Source of the DNA: Ruminococcus sp. | GTDB taxonomy: Bacteria; Bacillota; Clostridia; Oscillospirales; Ruminococcaceae | Assembly (NCBI GenBank): GCA_017441505.1 | Contig: JAFRXL010000034.1 | Span: 62,001 to 126,000 of the forward strand | DNA: 64,000 bases | Direction: 5' to 3' | Shown here: one piece after another, positions 24,281 through 31,342 of the stretch | Position numbering within the stretch: the stretch's first letter is position 1 | Layout of the letters: the number at the start of each line of letters is the position of its first letter | The notes under the pieces: generated by a model | Told to the model about the DNA's origin: nothing | Database searches by the model: none | What the model saw: only the letters and a program-made list of their open reading frames with translations | Position numbers and translations under genes: made by a program

Positions 24281-24309
24281 TTGACAATTTTTCGACAATG
24301 TGCTAAAAT
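24281..24309 (+). promoter_or_regulatory. Promoter of split pyruvate formate-lyase operon
   Basis: TTGACA (24281-24286), 17-base spacer, TAAAAT (24304-24309). The inverted repeat at 24211-24240 lies about 40 bases upstream and could be a regulator site. Confidence 0.8.
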
Positions 24310-24346
24310 ATAAAGAGCAAAATTAATATTAAAGGAGTCCTGAAAA

Positions 24347-26455
24347 ATGGTTGTAAAAACATGGCCAAAGGAATGGAATGGCTTCAATGAAGGCCGTTGG
24401 AGCAATACCTCTGTAAATGTACGTGACTTTATCAAGAAGAATTATACGCCTTATGACGGCGATGAGAGCTTCCTTGCTGGTCCGACAGAAGCAACAAAAC
24501 AGCTTTGGGATCAGGTTATGGATCTTTCACGTCAGGAGAGAGAAGCCGGCGGTGTCCTCGATATGGATACAAAGATAATATCCACTATCACTTCACACGA
24601 TGCGGGTTACCTCAATAAAGACCTTGAAAAGATCGTAGGACTTCAGACAGATAAGCCTTTCAAGCGTTCACTCCAGCCTTTCGGCGGTATAAGAATGGCT
24701 CAGCAGGCTTGTAAAGAATACGGCTACGAGGTCGATCCGGAAGTAGTTGACATATTCACAAAATACAGAAAGACACACAATCAGGGCGTTTTTGACGCTT
24801 ATACACCTGAAATGCGTCTTGCACGTCATTCTGCTATTCTCACAGGACTTCCTGACGCTTACGGCAGAGGACGTATCATCGGCGACTACAGAAGAGTTGC
24901 CCTCTATGGTATCGACATCCTCATAGAGGATAAGAAGCACCAGATAGAGACTTCACTCGTCAGAATGACATCCAAGAATATCCGCCTTCGTGAGGAACTT
25001 GCAGAGCAGGTACGTGCTTTACAGGAACTCAAGAAGCTCGGAGAGATCTATGGATTCGATATATCAAAGCCTGCTTCAAATGCAAGAGAAGCAGTTCAGT
25101 GGCTTTATTTCGGTTATCTTGCAGCTGTCAAGGAGCAGAATGGTGCGGCTATGTCACTCGGACGTACCTCAACATTCCTCGATATATATATCCAGCGTGA
25201 CCTCGATAACGGTATCATTACCGAGGAAGAGGCTCAGGAGATAATCGACCATTTCATCATGAAGCTCCGTATCGTTAAGTTTGCACGTACTCCTGAGTAC
25301 AACTCACTTTTCTCAGGCGACCCAACATGGATAACAGAGTCCATAGGCGGTGTAAGCGTTGACGGTAATCATATGGTAACAAAGAACAGCTTCCGTTACC
25401 TCCACACACTTGAAAACCTCGGTACTGCTCCGGAGCCGAATATGACTATACTCTGGTCAACAAAGCTTCCAAGAAAGTTCAAGGAATACTGTGCAAAGAT
25501 GTCTATCAAGACCTCTTCTATCCAGTACGAGAATGACGATATGATGCGTGTTATCCACGGTGACGACTATGCTATCGCCTGCTGCGTATCTTCAATGGTA
25601 GTCGGCAAGGAGATGCAGTTCTTCGGTGCAAGAGCAAACCTCGCTAAGTGCCTGCTTTACGCAATAAACGGCGGTATCGATGAGAGACTCGGAATTCAGG
25701 TAGGACCTAAGTTCAGACCTGTTGACGGAGAGTACCTCGATTTCGATGATGTCTGGGAAAAGTATATGGACATGATGGAGTGGCTCGCAGGACTTTATGT
25801 CAACACTCTTAACGTTATCCACTATATGCACGATAAGTACAGCTATGAGAGACTCCAGATGGCTCTCCACGACAGGGACGTTAAGCGTTACTTTGCAACT
25901 GGTATCGCAGGTCTTTCTGTTGTTGCGGATTCACTTTCTGCTATCAAGTACGCTAAGGTAAAGCCTATCCGCAAAGACATCGAAATAAAGGACAAGGCTG
26001 GCAATGTTGTTGACGTTGCAAAGAACGTTATCGTTGATTACGAGATAGAGGGAGACTTCCCAAAATACGGCAATAACGATGACCGTGTTGACCAGCTTGC
26101 TGTTACTGTAGTCCGCAAGTTCATGGACTGCATAAGAAAGCACCACACATACCGTGACGGTGTTCCGACAATGTCTATCCTCACTATCACATCAAACGTT
26201 GTATACGGCAAGAAGACAGGTAATACCCCTGACGGACGTAAGCAGGGAGTTCCGCTTGCTCCCGGAGCTAACCCGATGCACGGCAGAGATACTCACGGTG
26301 CAGTAGCTTCACTTTCATCCGTTGCTAAACTCCCGTTCAGACACGCTCAGGACGGTATCTCGAATACATTCTCTATCATCCCTAACGCTCTTGGTAAGGA
26401 TATGGACGTATTCGTGGGCGATATTGATCTTGATAAGCTCAAAGGTGAAGACTAA
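24347..26455 (+). CDS. pflB: Pyruvate formate-lyase catalytic core lacking the glycyl-radical domain
   Basis: 702 residues. The enzyme converts pyruvate and CoA to acetyl-CoA and formate in the cytoplasm. The PFL core is complete, including Cys412-Cys413 in [12 protein letters not shown], which matches the catalytic pair of E. coli PflB, and [12 protein letters not shown]. The sequence ends soon after [16 protein letters not shown] with an acidic tail ending LKGED. A normal PFL (about 740-760 residues) continues with a radical domain containing RVSGYAV; here that domain is the separate gene at 26704. No frameshift explains this, because a whole extra gene intervenes. The start has AAAGGAG. 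Together with the next two genes it forms one operon. The activase gene is not in the window. Confidence 0.95.
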
Positions 26456-26673
26456 TGAACGGTCCTGAAAAAGAAGTAAACGCTCAGACCCCTGAGGAAC
26501 TGGCTGACCTCATAGATCAGCTTATGGCAGGCGGCAGCGGTCACGTAAATATAATCCCTCAGAAGGACGGGAACGGAGTTAAGGTAGAGACTGTGAACAG
26601 CACTGACTGCGGTATCAAAGGTGCTTGCTGTCAGCCTACCGAGGACGCAGTTGATGAAGACGATGAACTTTGA
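26455..26673 (+). CDS. Small acidic protein between the two halves of pyruvate formate-lyase
   Basis: 72 residues; the ATG overlaps the pflB stop (TAATG), and AAAGGTG precedes it. I know no named family. Residues about 15-33, ELADLIDQLMAGGSGHVNI, align without gaps to [19 protein letters not shown] at the start of the separate radical subunit, sharing L, L, D, G, H and N and several similar residues. The protein then diverges, has three cysteines (CGIKGACC) and ends in an acidic tail (EDAVDEDDEL). It has no RVSGYAV. I infer a truncated relative of the docking segment, perhaps an assembly factor or a competitor for the core. Function unknown. Confidence 0.8.
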   Translation: MNGPEKEVNAQTPEELADLIDQLMAGGSGHVNIIPQKDGNGVKVETVNSTDCGIKGACCQPTEDAVDEDDEL

Positions 26674-26703
26674 TCGTATTTATGAATGAAGGAGGACTTT
26701 ATT

Positions 26704-26943
26704 ATGGAAAATCAGAAACAGGTCGATAACCTTATCGAATTGCTTGACGGTTACGTTGAAAAAGGCGGTCACCACCTCAATGTAAACGTCTTCACAAGAG
26801 AGACACTTCTTGATGCTCAAGCTCATCCTGAGAAGTATCCTCAGCTCACTGTCAGAGTATCAGGATATGCAGTAAACTTCGTCAAGCTCACAAAAGAGCA
26901 GCAGGACGACGTTATTTCAAGAACCTTCCATTCTGAACTTTAA
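26704..26943 (+). CDS. Autonomous glycyl-radical subunit of pyruvate formate-lyase (GrcA-like)
   Basis: 79 residues from the ATG at 26704, which has AAGGAGG at 7 bases; an earlier in-frame ATG at 26686 lies before the ribosome site. The sequence is the C-terminal domain of [38 protein letters not shown] and [13 protein letters not shown]. Gly54 is the predicted radical carrier set by the PFL activase. In E. coli GrcA is a spare part that rescues oxygen-cleaved PFL; here the core lacks its own radical domain, so this subunit should be essential for activity. It is the third gene of the operon, ended by the terminator at 26961. Confidence 0.93.
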
Positions 26944-26960
26944 TAACAATATCTGATATA

Positions 26961-26992
26961 TCCGCTGCATGAAGAGTGCAGCGGATTTTTTA
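26961..26992 (+). terminator. Terminator of pyruvate formate-lyase operon
   Basis: Perfect 9-bp stem TCCGCTGCA / TGCAGCGGA, 7-base loop, then TTTTTTATT. Confidence 0.9.
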
Positions 26993-27149: not shown

Positions 27150-27204
27150 CAAAGTATAAACATAAATGATTGATTAACAAATTGATTTTGGGAGGATGTT
27201 TAAA

Positions 27205-29268
27205 ATGGGCAGAAAAATAAAAAGAACTCTGGCTTTGGCAGCAGCTGCTGCAATGTCAGCTGTTCAGTTCGGTGCTTCCGGACTTTTTAATTCAACCGCA
27301 GCTGACACAGCAAGCGGTGCAACAAGCTTTCCGTTCGTAATAGAGGGCGAGGATATGGAAGGTGCAGGCGATCCGTGGACTGCGATCTATCAGACACAGA
27401 TCCCGGGATTTTCCGGAAAAGGCTTCTGGTATCTTACAGCTTCACCGGCTTCATTTGAAGTTACTGTTCCTGAGGACGGTATGTACTCAATAACAGTTCA
27501 CGGTGCTCAGATACTCAACAAAGAGGGCAGACAGCAGGCTGTTAAGGTTAATGGTGCAAAGTATATAACTCAGGCTGCATACTCAGAGGAGTGGAGAGAC
27601 TACGATTTCGGTATGGTCAGACTGAACAAGGGTGTGAATACTATCGAATTTATAAGTGAGTACGGTTATATGGCTGTGGACTATGTTACTGTATCAGAGG
27701 CTGAATTCTCTGATCTTAGTATTGCAGATGATACTCCGATAGACGCAAAGGCTACTCCTGAGACTAAAGCTCTTATGAAGTACCTCAAGAGCGTTTACGG
27801 TAAGAATATCCTTTCCGGTCAGCAGGAGATATACGGCGGCGGTCACCCTATGACAAGCACTATCAGATATGATGCGGCTGCTAATAAGTGCGTGGATTCC
27901 GACGGTAAGGAGTACACTTTTGATGAGGCAGATATTGCAACAGCTGACGACGGTTCAAAGTTCGTATGGAAATGTTTTGACGAGGACGGTCAGCAGTACA
28001 ATTACAATCAGCAGAACCGTAATTACACATGGAATGACTACGATTACGAGATGAAGTATCTCAAGAATCTAACAGGCAAGCTTCCGGCTATCAGAGGTTT
28101 CGACTTCGGAAGCTACTGTCCTTGCTATGCATGGGATGACGGTGTTGCAAACCGTATGATCGACTGGGCTAAGAACAAAAACGGTATCGTAACAGCTTCA
28201 TGGCACATAAACGTACCTACTAACAAAGCTGACTATACTCTTGGCGAGCCGCTCGACTTCTCTAAGACAACTTATAGCGAAAAGACTGATTTCGTTACTG
28301 CAAACTGCATGGTAGAGGGTACTATGGAGTATGATTACTTCCAGCTTTGTATGAAGAATCTTGCTGCTGAGCTTAAAAAGCTCCAGGATGCAGGCGTACC
28401 GGTAATATTCCGTCCATTCCACGAAGCAGAGGGAAATCCGAGCCGTACAGAAGACCCTATAGACGGTTCCGGAGCATGGTTCTGGTGGTCAAAAGAAGGA
28501 GCAGAAGTGTACAATAAGCTCTGGGCATTCCTTCAGGATACTCTTATGAACGAGTATGGACTCCATAACCTTATTTACGAGCAGAACCTTTATGCATGGT
28601 CCGAGTATTCAGCAGCATGGTATTCAGGTGATGACAAGGTAGATATTGTCGGCTATGATAAGTACAATGTTGTATATAACCGCCATGACGGAAAAACTTC
28701 CGGAGCAAACTATGATGCTGAGTCAAGAATATTCTATTCGCTCTACAATTGGGTAAAGGGACATAAAATGGTTGCTATGCCTGAGAACGACTCTGTTCCA
28801 AGCATCCAGAATATGAAAGTTGAGCACGCAAACTGGCTGTATTTCTGCCCGTGGTATGATTCCGACCAAGAGCCTTTTGTCTCTGGTGAGAAGTATCAGG
28901 ATGCTGATAATCTCAAAGAGGTTTACCTCAGCGATTACTGCTTAACTCTTGATGAGCTTCCTAAGGACCTTTATAAGGGCGGAAGCACAGACCCTGATCC
29001 GACTGATCCTTCCGAACCGGATGATGTTTTCTACGGTGACGCAAATTGCAGCGGTGAGATAAAGATGAACGATGCTGTACTTATAATGCAGGCTATCGCT
29101 AACAACGATATTTATGGTGTCGGCGGAACTGATGAGAATGCACTTACAGCTAAGGGAGCTATAAACGCAGACTGCTATGAACCTGGCAGTGACCTTACAA
29201 ATATGGATGCTCTTGCTGTACAGAAATACCTCATCGGCACTGAAAAACTGCCTGTTAAGCTCAAATAA
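27205..29268 (+). CDS. Secreted CBM35-GH26 beta-mannanase with dockerin
   Basis: 687 residues from the ATG at 27205; the ATG at 27196 touches the GGGAGG site and is less likely. Signal peptide (about 1-33), then a CBM35-type beta-sandwich (about 45-175; FVIEGEDMEG...YMAVDYVTV) that binds mannan or uronic acids, then GH26 (about 185-600), which cleaves beta-1,4-mannan with retention. Catalytic residues are Glu407 in IFRPFHEAEG and Glu527 in VAMPENDSVP. A Pro/Asp linker leads to a dockerin of Ruminococcus style: GDANCSGEIKMNDAVLIMQA and DLTNMDALAVQKYLIGT, whose second calcium loop is irregular. It is predicted to join a cellulosome. Monocistronic. Confidence 0.95.
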   Translation: MGRKIKRTLALAAAAAMSAVQFGASGLFNSTAADTASGATSFPFVIEGEDMEGAGDPWTAIYQTQIPGFSGKGFWYLTASPASFEVTVPEDGMYSITVHGAQILNKEGRQQAVKVNGAKYITQAAYSEEWRDYDFGMVRLNKGVNTIEFISEYGYMAVDYVTVSEAEFSDLSIADDTPIDAKATPETKALMKYLKSVYGKNILSGQQEIYGGGHPMTSTIRYDAAANKCVDSDGKEYTFDEADIATADDGSKFVWKCFDEDGQQYNYNQQNRNYTWNDYDYEMKYLKNLTGKLPAIRGFDFGSYCPCYAWDDGVANRMIDWAKNKNGIVTASWHINVPTNKADYTLGEPLDFSKTTYSEKTDFVTANCMVEGTMEYDYFQLCMKNLAAELKKLQDAGVPVIFRPFHEAEGNPSRTEDPIDGSGAWFWWSKEGAEVYNKLWAFLQDTLMNEYGLHNLIYEQNLYAWSEYSAAWYSGDDKVDIVGYDKYNVVYNRHDGKTSGANYDAESRIFYSLYNWVKGHKMVAMPENDSVPSIQNMKVEHANWLYFCPWYDSDQEPFVSGEKYQDADNLKEVYLSDYCLTLDELPKDLYKGGSTDPDPTDPSEPDDVFYGDANCSGEIKMNDAVLIMQAIANNDIYGVGGTDENALTAKGAINADCYEPGSDLTNMDALAVQKYLIGTEKLPVKLK

Positions 29269-29424: not shown

Positions 29425-29656
29425 AGAGAAAAGTCATATTATTTATAATAAATTCAATTAATATCTTTTTATTATTTAATATATTGAGTGTTTGCTATTG
29501 CTCTCCATATAAAAGCCGAAGGCAGTAATGCTTATGCATTTCAAGATTTTTCTGACACTGGGGATTTTTCTTTATGACGAATATTGGCTGGCAGGTTTTG
29601 GGTGGAGTTGCAGCGTATTATTCAACAGTATATCTGCTGTTAGAAAGGAGTTCCTT

Positions 29657-31342
29657 ATGGATCCGGAAAAGGAGTTGCGTTTTTATAGGCTGTATGAACA
29701 GCTTGCATCGCTGACACAGGTCGTAAATCAGAAGCTGGATATACCTCAGATAGAAGCTCTTTTAAATGAAATATCCGGTATGTTTCGCCTTTCCAAGGGA
29801 GTAACACATTTTTACCGCAATCCAGGTGATGAGATGGATGGCATAGGTGAAACAATGATAAGCTATGATACGGGCAAAGGCGGAAAAGCTGTGCATACAG
29901 TGAGATTTGTTACCAGACTTTTGTCTATTTCTACAATGACTGTTTATATGACAGATGATGCTGAACCTTTAACCGAGGAAGAGCTTTTCAAGGTCGACCT
30001 GACTATGCGTACCGCTCTTGCATTTATAAGCCGTAACCGTTTGCAGGTGATGGCTGAGGAGCTTGCTTTCTATGATGATATGGGATTCCGTAATATCCGC
30101 AGTTTCTTCAAGTATATCTCATGGAAAGGCTATAAAGGCGGTCTTGACGGTACAGCGGCATTGAATTATAATATGCGTCATTTTTCTTTGATAAACGATG
30201 AATACGGCAGAGAGTGCGGAGATACAGTACTTAAAAATCATTACAAGCAAGTTGAGAAAATAATTGGTGAAGATGGTATAGCAGTTCGGCTTGGCGGTGA
30301 TTCATTTGTGTGCATATGCAGTCAGAGTGATTTGCCGGAGCTGCTTGAATACCTCAATGAAGCGGTCGTATTGATCGATGACAGCGGCAGAACAGCCCGT
30401 ATATCCAATTGTGTGGGCGTTTTTAATATACCTGAAAACTATACGGTCAAATTCCCGAATGATATTATGGGAAAGGTAATGTATGCTTTTCAGCTTGCTA
30501 AGCTTGGTACATACGGGAATATCGTATTCTATTCCGATGTGCTTATGTCTAATAAAGAACGTTCAAGAAAGATACAGAAATTGTTCCCTAAGGCATTGAA
30601 GAATGATGAGTTTCGTGTGTTCTATCAGCCAAAGGTGGATATTGATACAGGCGAGATATGCGGTGCAGAAGCACTATGCCGCTGGTTCCATGACGGCAGG
30701 ATAATACAGCCTATGGAATTTATACCGGTTCTGGAAGAAACGAATGATATATGCAAGCTTGATTTCCATATGCTCGATCTTGTATGTTATGATATTCGAC
30801 GCTGGCTTGACGAGGGCAGACGTGTCGGGCGTATTTCAGTGAATTTGTCACGCAGGCATATGATCGACCCTAAGCTGCTTGATGTGCTCATGAACATTAT
30901 CGATAAGTATAATGTTCCGCACGAATACATAGAGATAGAGCTGACAGAGACGACAACTGACGTTGAATTCAAAGACCTCAAACGTGTTGTTGAAGCTCTT
31001 CATCAGCAGAATATATGCACATCTGTGGACGATTTCGGCATGGGATATTCGTCACTGAACCTTATACGTGTTGTTCCGTGGAACGTGCTGAAGGTAGACA
31101 GGATATTCCTGCCGCTTGACGGAGAATCTGAGGAGAGCACAAGAAGCGTTATGTTCAAACACGTAATTACAATGGCTAAAGAGCTTGGACTTGAATGTAT
31201 CGTTGAAGGAGTTGAGACTTCCGGTCAGCTTAAACTGCTAAGGAAAAATGGCTGTCGGCTGGCACAGGGGTATCTCTTTGATAAGCCGCTGAAGGTCGAG
31301 GAGTTTGAGAAGCGGCTTGATATGGTCAGATATGTAATATAG
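29657..31342 (+). CDS. GGDEF-EAL protein, probable c-di-GMP phosphodiesterase
   Basis: 561 residues from the ATG at 29657 (AAAGGAG at 7 bases). An N-terminal GAF-like or unassigned region (about 1-150) precedes a degenerate GGDEF domain (about 160-310) in which the motif reads GGDSF, so cyclase activity is unlikely. The EAL domain (about 325-555) keeps the metal and catalytic residues: AEALCRW, SVNLSRRH, ELTETT, SVDDFGMGYSSL, EGVET and AQGYLFDKP. It should hydrolyse c-di-GMP in the cytosol. A paralogue with the same layout lies at 35035 on the opposite strand. Confidence 0.9.
   Translation: MDPEKELRFYRLYEQLASLTQVVNQKLDIPQIEALLNEISGMFRLSKGVTHFYRNPGDEMDGIGETMISYDTGKGGKAVHTVRFVTRLLSISTMTVYMTDDAEPLTEEELFKVDLTMRTALAFISRNRLQVMAEELAFYDDMGFRNIRSFFKYISWKGYKGGLDGTAALNYNMRHFSLINDEYGRECGDTVLKNHYKQVEKIIGEDGIAVRLGGDSFVCICSQSDLPELLEYLNEAVVLIDDSGRTARISNCVGVFNIPENYTVKFPNDIMGKVMYAFQLAKLGTYGNIVFYSDVLMSNKERSRKIQKLFPKALKNDEFRVFYQPKVDIDTGEICGAEALCRWFHDGRIIQPMEFIPVLEETNDICKLDFHMLDLVCYDIRRWLDEGRRVGRISVNLSRRHMIDPKLLDVLMNIIDKYNVPHEYIEIELTETTTDVEFKDLKRVVEALHQQNICTSVDDFGMGYSSLNLIRVVPWNVLKVDRIFLPLDGESEESTRSVMFKHVITMAKELGLECIVEGVETSGQLKLLRKNGCRLAQGYLFDKPLKVEEFEKRLDMVRYVI

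Follow-up and report, generated by a model that had tools for sequence, protein, structure and literature searches.

A probable pyruvate formate-lyase encoded as a separate catalytic core and radical subunit, with a conserved third gene, in Ruminococcus

Pyruvate formate-lyase (PFL) is the textbook example of an enzyme cleaved by oxygen, and its rescue by the small protein YfiD is treated as an emergency measure. In the window analysed here, i.e. the whole 64,000-nucleotide stretch of DNA from Ruminococcus sp., the gene for the PFL core stops where the glycyl radical domain should begin and the radical domain is encoded by a gene of its own. The locus raises the question of whether these genes encode the parts of one enzyme, a spare part for a complete PFL located elsewhere, or the remains of a broken gene, and what the third gene that lies between them contributes.

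Organization of the operon

The features of the locus are as follows (window positions).

24281–26986, + strand: three-gene PFL operon (core, middle ORF, GrcA3) with its flanking signals, promoter-like on the 5' side and terminator-like on the 3' side
24281–24309, + strand: promoter-like site TTGACA-17-TAAAAT with TG ahead of the second hexamer (11 of 12 consensus bases; consensus match only)
24347–26455, + strand: PFL catalytic core, 702 aa, without the radical glycine, matched by TIGR01255 and Pfam PFL-like
25580–25585, + strand: codons of the active-site pair Cys412-Cys413 (direct reading)
26455–26673, + strand: middle ORF, 72 aa, with a radical-domain-like first half, the two-cysteine motif STDCGIKGACCQPTE and an acidic end
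26608–26610, + strand: Cys52 codon of the middle ORF, invariant in 36 aligned sequences
26626–26628, + strand: Cys58 codon of the middle ORF, invariant in 36 aligned sequences
26629–26631, + strand: Cys59 codon of the middle ORF, directly after Cys58 and not invariant
26704–26943, + strand: radical subunit GrcA3, 79 aa, matched by NF038360, with a ribosome site ahead of 26704
26863–26865, + strand: codon of Gly54, the radical glycine of GrcA3 (direct reading)
26960–26986, + strand: terminator-like hairpin of 11 pairs with a T tail (consensus match only)

The start of the middle ORF shares one base with the stop codon of the core (TAATG), and an alternative in-frame ATG at 26686 would lengthen GrcA3 to 85 aa. 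No RNA element was found in the operon in Rfam at the gathering threshold. Immediately 3' of the operon, positions 27196–29268 and 29528–31342 encode a family 26 glycosyl hydrolase (690 aa), whose end resembles a dockerin, followed by a GGDEF-EAL protein.

The core scored 1120 bits against TIGR01255 (cut-off 994; positions 2–667 of the 744 in the model) and 730 bits against Pfam PFL-like, and the small radical protein matched positions 662–744 of the same TIGR01255 model. In the alignment to Escherichia coli PFL (PDB 1h16), the core corresponds to residues 10–680 and the small protein to residues 681–756, with the break at ~680/681. Both the reading of the ORFs and the TIGR01255 match bear out the original prediction of a 702-residue core that carries Cys412-Cys413 and ends where the radical domain should begin. 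Direct reading likewise placed Gly54 in the RVSGYAV motif of a separate 79-aa ORF, which starts with the ATG at 26704, 249 bases past the core stop, behind a ribosome site of its own (AAGGAGGA). This radical piece passes the NCBI GrcA3 model NF038360 (166.8 bits, cut-off 158) and fails TIGR04365, the model for GrcA/YfiD (96.3 bits, cut-off 170). Thus, the locus has a core that scores over the PFL cut-off and contains the adjacent cysteine pair, and it has the radical glycine motif on a separate ORF instead of in the same polypeptide; the activating enzyme sought in the genome, pflA, was found on a contig other than that of the operon (TIGR02493, 309.6 bits).

The proposal that activity must need two polypeptides holds in so far as the core lacks the radical glycine and the split is conserved (see below); it overlooked the third gene within the 249-base gap. 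The sequences strongly suggest that the proteins of the operon form one enzyme, which we regard as very probable, and for the whole explanation, namely that the three genes encode one obligate multi-polypeptide PFL with the core, GrcA3 and the middle protein as its parts, we would put the probability at about 0.8.

The middle protein and the cysteine element

The middle protein of the window had no family match in Pfam, NCBIfam or PHROGs. A profile built from 36 diverse middle proteins (some of them from this genus) gave matches that span all or most of the profile in 33 of the 36 genomes of the genus, the same 33 that show a separate radical gene. Met1, Asp21, Cys52, Cys58 and Pro61 are invariant in these 36 sequences. 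The first half of the protein resembles the first half of GrcA3 (hhalign probability 94.8, E = 5.1e-8 over 30 columns; with 12 sequences, probability 70.5, E = 3.9e-5), and 13 of the 36 middle proteins matched the NCBI GrcA3 model at E ≤ 0.01, the best of them at 4e-6. The second half has the two-cysteine motif instead of the radical glycine loop of PF01228. Searches with all 36 proteins gave one weak Gly_radical match in Pfam (0.0088) and no PHROGs family, and the cysteine half appears to belong to no family in the libraries searched. When the profile was run against a draw of 197 genomes from the order, it matched 22, three of them over nearly the full length, all with a split PFL; the remaining 19 matches covered the first half only and lay within a radical domain, that of GrcA3 in 12 cases and that of a fused PFL in 7.

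A wider view was provided by the best 80 GrcA3 loci among titled genome records, a selected set obtained by a GrcA3 alignment scan. Their titles include Ruminococcus flavefaciens, R. bicirculans 80/3, Ruminococcus sp. YE71, Beduini massiliensis, Claveliimonas bilis, Lachnoclostridium phytofermentans and Candidatus Gastranaerophilales, and many of the records are metagenome-assembled. A standalone radical domain is present in all 80 loci and a truncated core adjoins it in 76. As for the other four, L167 begins at a contig edge and L153, L177 and L185 have no core nearby. The latter three, titled Gastranaerophilales, thus carry the standalone radical domain without an adjacent PFL core, and an opposite-strand gene in L153 and L185 presumably encodes a Crp/Fnr-like regulator. 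The pflA gene lies on the same strand in 45 of the best 80 loci and within 400 bases of grcA3 in 40.

All 76 loci with a core contain a cysteine element, which forms the end of the core in 31 (type A) and a separate protein in 45 (type B). The pattern C-x(2,9)-[AGP]-C-x2-P fits all 45 type B proteins and 15 of the 31 type A tails, the other 16 having other pairs, e.g. CC or CxCC; the middle ORFs of L059, L138, L148 and L265 fell outside the regular expression and were identified by reading. The two types are bridged by L085, whose separate protein ends in ACQTPTLHEGLD... like those type A core tails that have GAC..PTLFEGLD. In type A cores the cysteine motif occurs with no radical-domain-like half, which means that this half can sometimes be dispensed with.

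The likeness of its first half to GrcA3 leads us to propose, tentatively and at less than even odds, that the middle protein docks at the site of the radical domain. It is also possible, if somewhat unlikely, that the cysteine element has no docking role at all and acts as a redox tail, which would return the active-site pair to its reduced state once air has reached it in the absence of the radical piece. This idea is modelled on the C-terminal thiols of aerobic ribonucleotide reductases. The 76 bacterial loci with a core (of the best 80) have in common at least two cysteines towards the C-terminal end, whether of the core or of a separate protein; most of these ends are acidic (the last 15 residues have a median net charge of -6 and -3 in the two forms); the variable spacing of the cysteines is easier to reconcile with a flexible thiol pair than with a fixed metal site; and the 23 distinct stretches of fused PFL that run from SNTF to the end contain at most one cysteine each. 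However, the conserved proline and the radical-domain-like half of the separate form suggest something more than a free thiol tail.

It is doubtful that the middle protein is a metal-binding accessory subunit that tunes radical transfer, like the small subunits of benzylsuccinate synthase. A [4Fe-4S] cluster needs four cysteines, and only two are invariant in the 36 sequences, which would not suffice for such a cluster within a single chain; the two have 5 or 6 residues between them in 38 of the 45 separate proteins, and the profile matched no PDB chain better than E = 0.19. What recommends this reading is that benzylsuccinate synthase has two [4Fe-4S] subunits, one of which promotes thiyl radical formation, according to the part of the source available to us (PMC12590467). 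The leading idea is that the cysteines would guard or re-reduce the active site, a metal site being less likely.

Conservation, distribution and origin of the split

The suggested comparison with related Ruminococcus genomes showed the same split throughout most of the genus: 33 of the 36 genomes, that of the window included, have a standalone radical domain, and both the core and the middle ORF are present in all 33 fetched loci, with one core running off the end of its contig and another containing masked bases. The exceptions are G010 and G021, which gave no PFL match, and G035, which has a core fragment. G010 is 96% complete and matched neither TIGR01255 nor GrcA3 nor the middle-protein profile, so that this congener seems to have lost PFL.

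TIGR01255 was used to search 50 genomes, the 36 of the genus and 14 others with GrcA3, of which 28 were at least 90% complete and at most 5% contaminated. Matches were found in 48, and in 44 of these the core scored over the cut-off and ended at model position 664–682 of 744; the other four were fragments or were broken by contig ends or masked bases, and the G035 fragment cannot be judged. No fused PFL was seen in the 48 matched genomes of the 50 searched. Some frame lengths in this search and in the class draw described below (~790–906 aa) run through stops; in the fetched loci, separate core and radical ORFs were confirmed by translation. The second full-length pflB that would have spoken against the split enzyme was thus seen in none of the 48, nor in the window's own genome, which is 79.55% complete, and for that reason the argument is carried by the genus-wide result. 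A second Gly_radical match in the same genome, on contig C19, was rejected as a PFL: it is the anaerobic ribonucleotide reductase NrdD, accompanied by its activase NrdG.

An even draw of 245 genomes of Clostridia contained 122 with an over-cut-off PFL, and in 12 of the 122, the window's genome included, a truncated core was the only one. The other 11 all have GrcA beside the core, with the cysteine motif on the core in five, on a separate ORF in five and absent in one (L270). In L261 (genome G761) the gene order is core, grcA3 and then the separate cysteine protein, which usually stands in the middle. The GrcA3 cut-off was passed by 15 of 197 genomes in the draw from the order and by 2 of 398 in the draw from the phylum (the window's genome being included in both). 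The split form is frequent in certain gut lineages but rare on the whole.

These searches make it very improbable that GrcA3 is an ordinary YfiD-type spare part, with the true fused PFL elsewhere and the operon secondary. Such a role could be read from the membership of the small protein in the GrcA group of models, from its NCBI name, autonomous glycyl radical cofactor, and from the incompleteness of the window's genome. However, GrcA/YfiD works alongside a complete PFL that it repairs, and the 50 genomes searched showed no fused PFL; nor did any genome in the class draw combine a complete split core with a fused PFL at E 1e-150, fragments aside. A fused PFL hidden elsewhere was rejected on the basis of the genus-wide and class-draw searches.

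Across the genus loci, median dN/dS was 0.043 for the core, 0.040 for GrcA3 and 0.19 for the middle gene (dS 1.4–1.8, which is near saturation; 266 of 528 pairs usable for the middle gene), so that the middle gene evolves faster than the other two. A misassembly or a premature stop in a decaying pflB, which might be suspected in a draft assembly of 57 contigs, is ruled out by the recurrence of the layout across 33 genomes of the genus as well as in complete records (R. bicirculans 80/3 chromosome II and the C. bilis chromosome) and by the dN/dS values near 0.04 for the core and GrcA3.

A split form without the cysteine element was found in family f219, that of genome G800. Of its 61 genomes searched, 33 matched and 30 loci were fetched, 29 of them readable (all but L302). 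Sixteen loci are split, with the core ending near SLGKED and the radical ORF next to it, and 13 are fused; the cysteine-pair motif was found in none of the 16, the core of L298 ending in a single cysteine. Twelve viral contigs (L186–L197) carry a standalone radical domain similar to the f219 form, and a PFL core adjoins it in L190 and in L192/L197, which are identical over that stretch. Because the f219 and viral split forms are without the cysteine element, the cysteines are not required for splitting itself.

The viral split PFLs (L190:2932–5222 and L192:4968–7264) are close to the cysteine-free split PFL of f219, and the one in L192 stands after an anaerobic ribonucleotide reductase gene. 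The core of L192 (5240–7264) contains three in-frame TGA codons, each at a tryptophan position of its relatives, which suggests that TGA is read as tryptophan there. Viral contigs were also scanned with exact short patterns, which detect close relatives only: the PDB chain 38la gave no relative and the L190 core gave its own contig alone. Among phage records, the 38la sequence found 35 matches (best, 72.5%), and the two records examined contain fused PFLs. One record labelled Bacteriophage sp. (L228, MT838692.1) has a fused PFL followed by a gene that by eye is pflA-like, nested among split bacterial PFLs; it is probably bacterial DNA and possibly a re-fusion.

Three trees, all of them quick searches on ~470 columns without bootstrap and with hand-thinned sets (the second dropped 20 of the 97 rows of the first and the third kept 55), differ in the number of changes between fused and split forms: one in the first tree, which had 14 fused rows, two in the second and at least five in the third. 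A single origin of the split fits the first tree and not those with more fused rows; one gain with re-fusions and several fissions both remain. In the third tree, rows of the cysteine type cluster in a group of 44 (96 percent) that includes one fused row, and cysteine-free rows in a group of 22 (100 percent) that includes four fused rows; this tree undersamples the fused side because L239, L241, L243 and L250 were left out and a motif filter removed 14 of the other 27 class loci. In the second tree, PDB chain 38la groups with the viral cores (98 percent SH-aLRT).

A possible mechanism and comparison with known systems

If the three proteins form an obligate PFL, the core would supply the catalytic Cys412-Cys413 pair, and GrcA3, activated by the unlinked PflA, would supply the whole radical domain (approximately E. 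coli residues 681–759). Such an assembly would be a permanent version of the state of E. coli PFL after oxygen damage, i.e. a core that lacks a usable radical glycine, with a replaceable radical piece. Since the likeness of the core to PFL ends at ~680 and the middle protein restores in trans a relative of the part from ~681 on, we read the operon as a permanently cleaved PFL with its spare part. The first half of the middle protein would then dock at the GrcA3 site, marking or holding the empty site until GrcA3 takes over, and its two cysteines would guard the exposed active site. The original suggestion that the split would let the cell swap a cleaved 9-kDa piece is a plausible benefit.

Experiments on the E. 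coli enzyme bear on this proposal. The E. coli PflB G734A variant makes formate with GrcA and none without it, as reported in the part of the source available to us (PMC12338860), which indicates that a core can function with a separate domain when its own glycine is missing. According to the accessible sections of PMC8683613, PFL lacking residues 696–733 (truncated after residue 695) did not detectably bind YfiD and gave a radical yield reduced 32-fold, which led the authors to infer that residues 696–733 are a recognition element; once activated, the truncated PFL complexes were as active as the wild type. In the same sections, radical on truncated PFL amounted to 2.7 µM with YfiD lacking its N-terminus vs 0.5 µM with the full-length protein (5.4-fold), and that of cleaved PFL with YfiD to 15–17 µM. 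Because the YfiD without its N-terminus activates the truncated core better, a short core and a short radical piece can apparently manage in part without a third part, and the docking reading is the weaker for it. The split enzymes would provide a natural test of residues 696–733 as the recognition element.

A more elaborate picture, rather unlikely to hold as a whole, is that of a take-apart PFL in gut bacteria, in which an exposed core is served by a disposable radical cartridge and by a dummy cartridge, consisting of the docking half and the two cysteines, that would plug or re-reduce the active site, the core surviving air and restarting without resynthesis; in other lineages the dummy would be reduced to a tail of the core. 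The cysteine element, on the core or in trans, is in any case a concrete conserved part that calls for explanation. Natural two-piece enzymes offer a way to study how the radical domain enters and leaves the active site, and the split layout opens a new way to test how an oxygen-sensitive enzyme is repaired. For annotation, such cores look like truncated pflB though formate production should be intact.

Parts of the system are known already: NCBI curates a family for the radical piece, and the PDB contains two truncated PFL cores. Since the radical piece passes NF038360, it has been delimited by NCBI; the name of that family denotes a cofactor and not an obligate subunit, and the core and the cysteine half of the middle protein lie outside the model. 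The PDB entries 38la and 38lb (Formate acetyltransferase), with chains of 687 and 739 residues, are the best PDB matches to the split cores. Both fall on the split-form side of a quick tree (support 89), 38la with the cysteine-free viral cores and not with this operon; neither chain has a radical-domain match (38lb considered without its last ~38 residues), and their ends may be natural or engineered. No paper on the split PFL arrangement was found in the open-licence literature, most subscription journals being outside this scope, and the accessible parts of PMC11528403 and PMC9403272 do not mention it. Within these limits of the open-licence literature, the obligate lineage-wide split and the cysteine element appear to be undescribed.

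Two known systems invite comparison. In benzylsuccinate synthase the radical domain stays in the large chain. Its accessory subunits resemble the small proteins described here in being small partners of a glycyl radical enzyme, but they bind [4Fe-4S] clusters, according to the available part of PMC12590467. Closer is the E. coli system of PFL and YfiD/GrcA (TIGR04365), in which, as proposed here, a separate radical domain activated by PflA serves a core without a working glycine. Compared with YfiD, GrcA3 is without the long N-terminal extension and includes the stretch matching residues 681–695, over which YfiD did not align. In E. coli a complete PFL is retained and the spare part comes into use after damage, whereas the group of anaerobes described here appears to run its central metabolism with the radical domain permanently detached.
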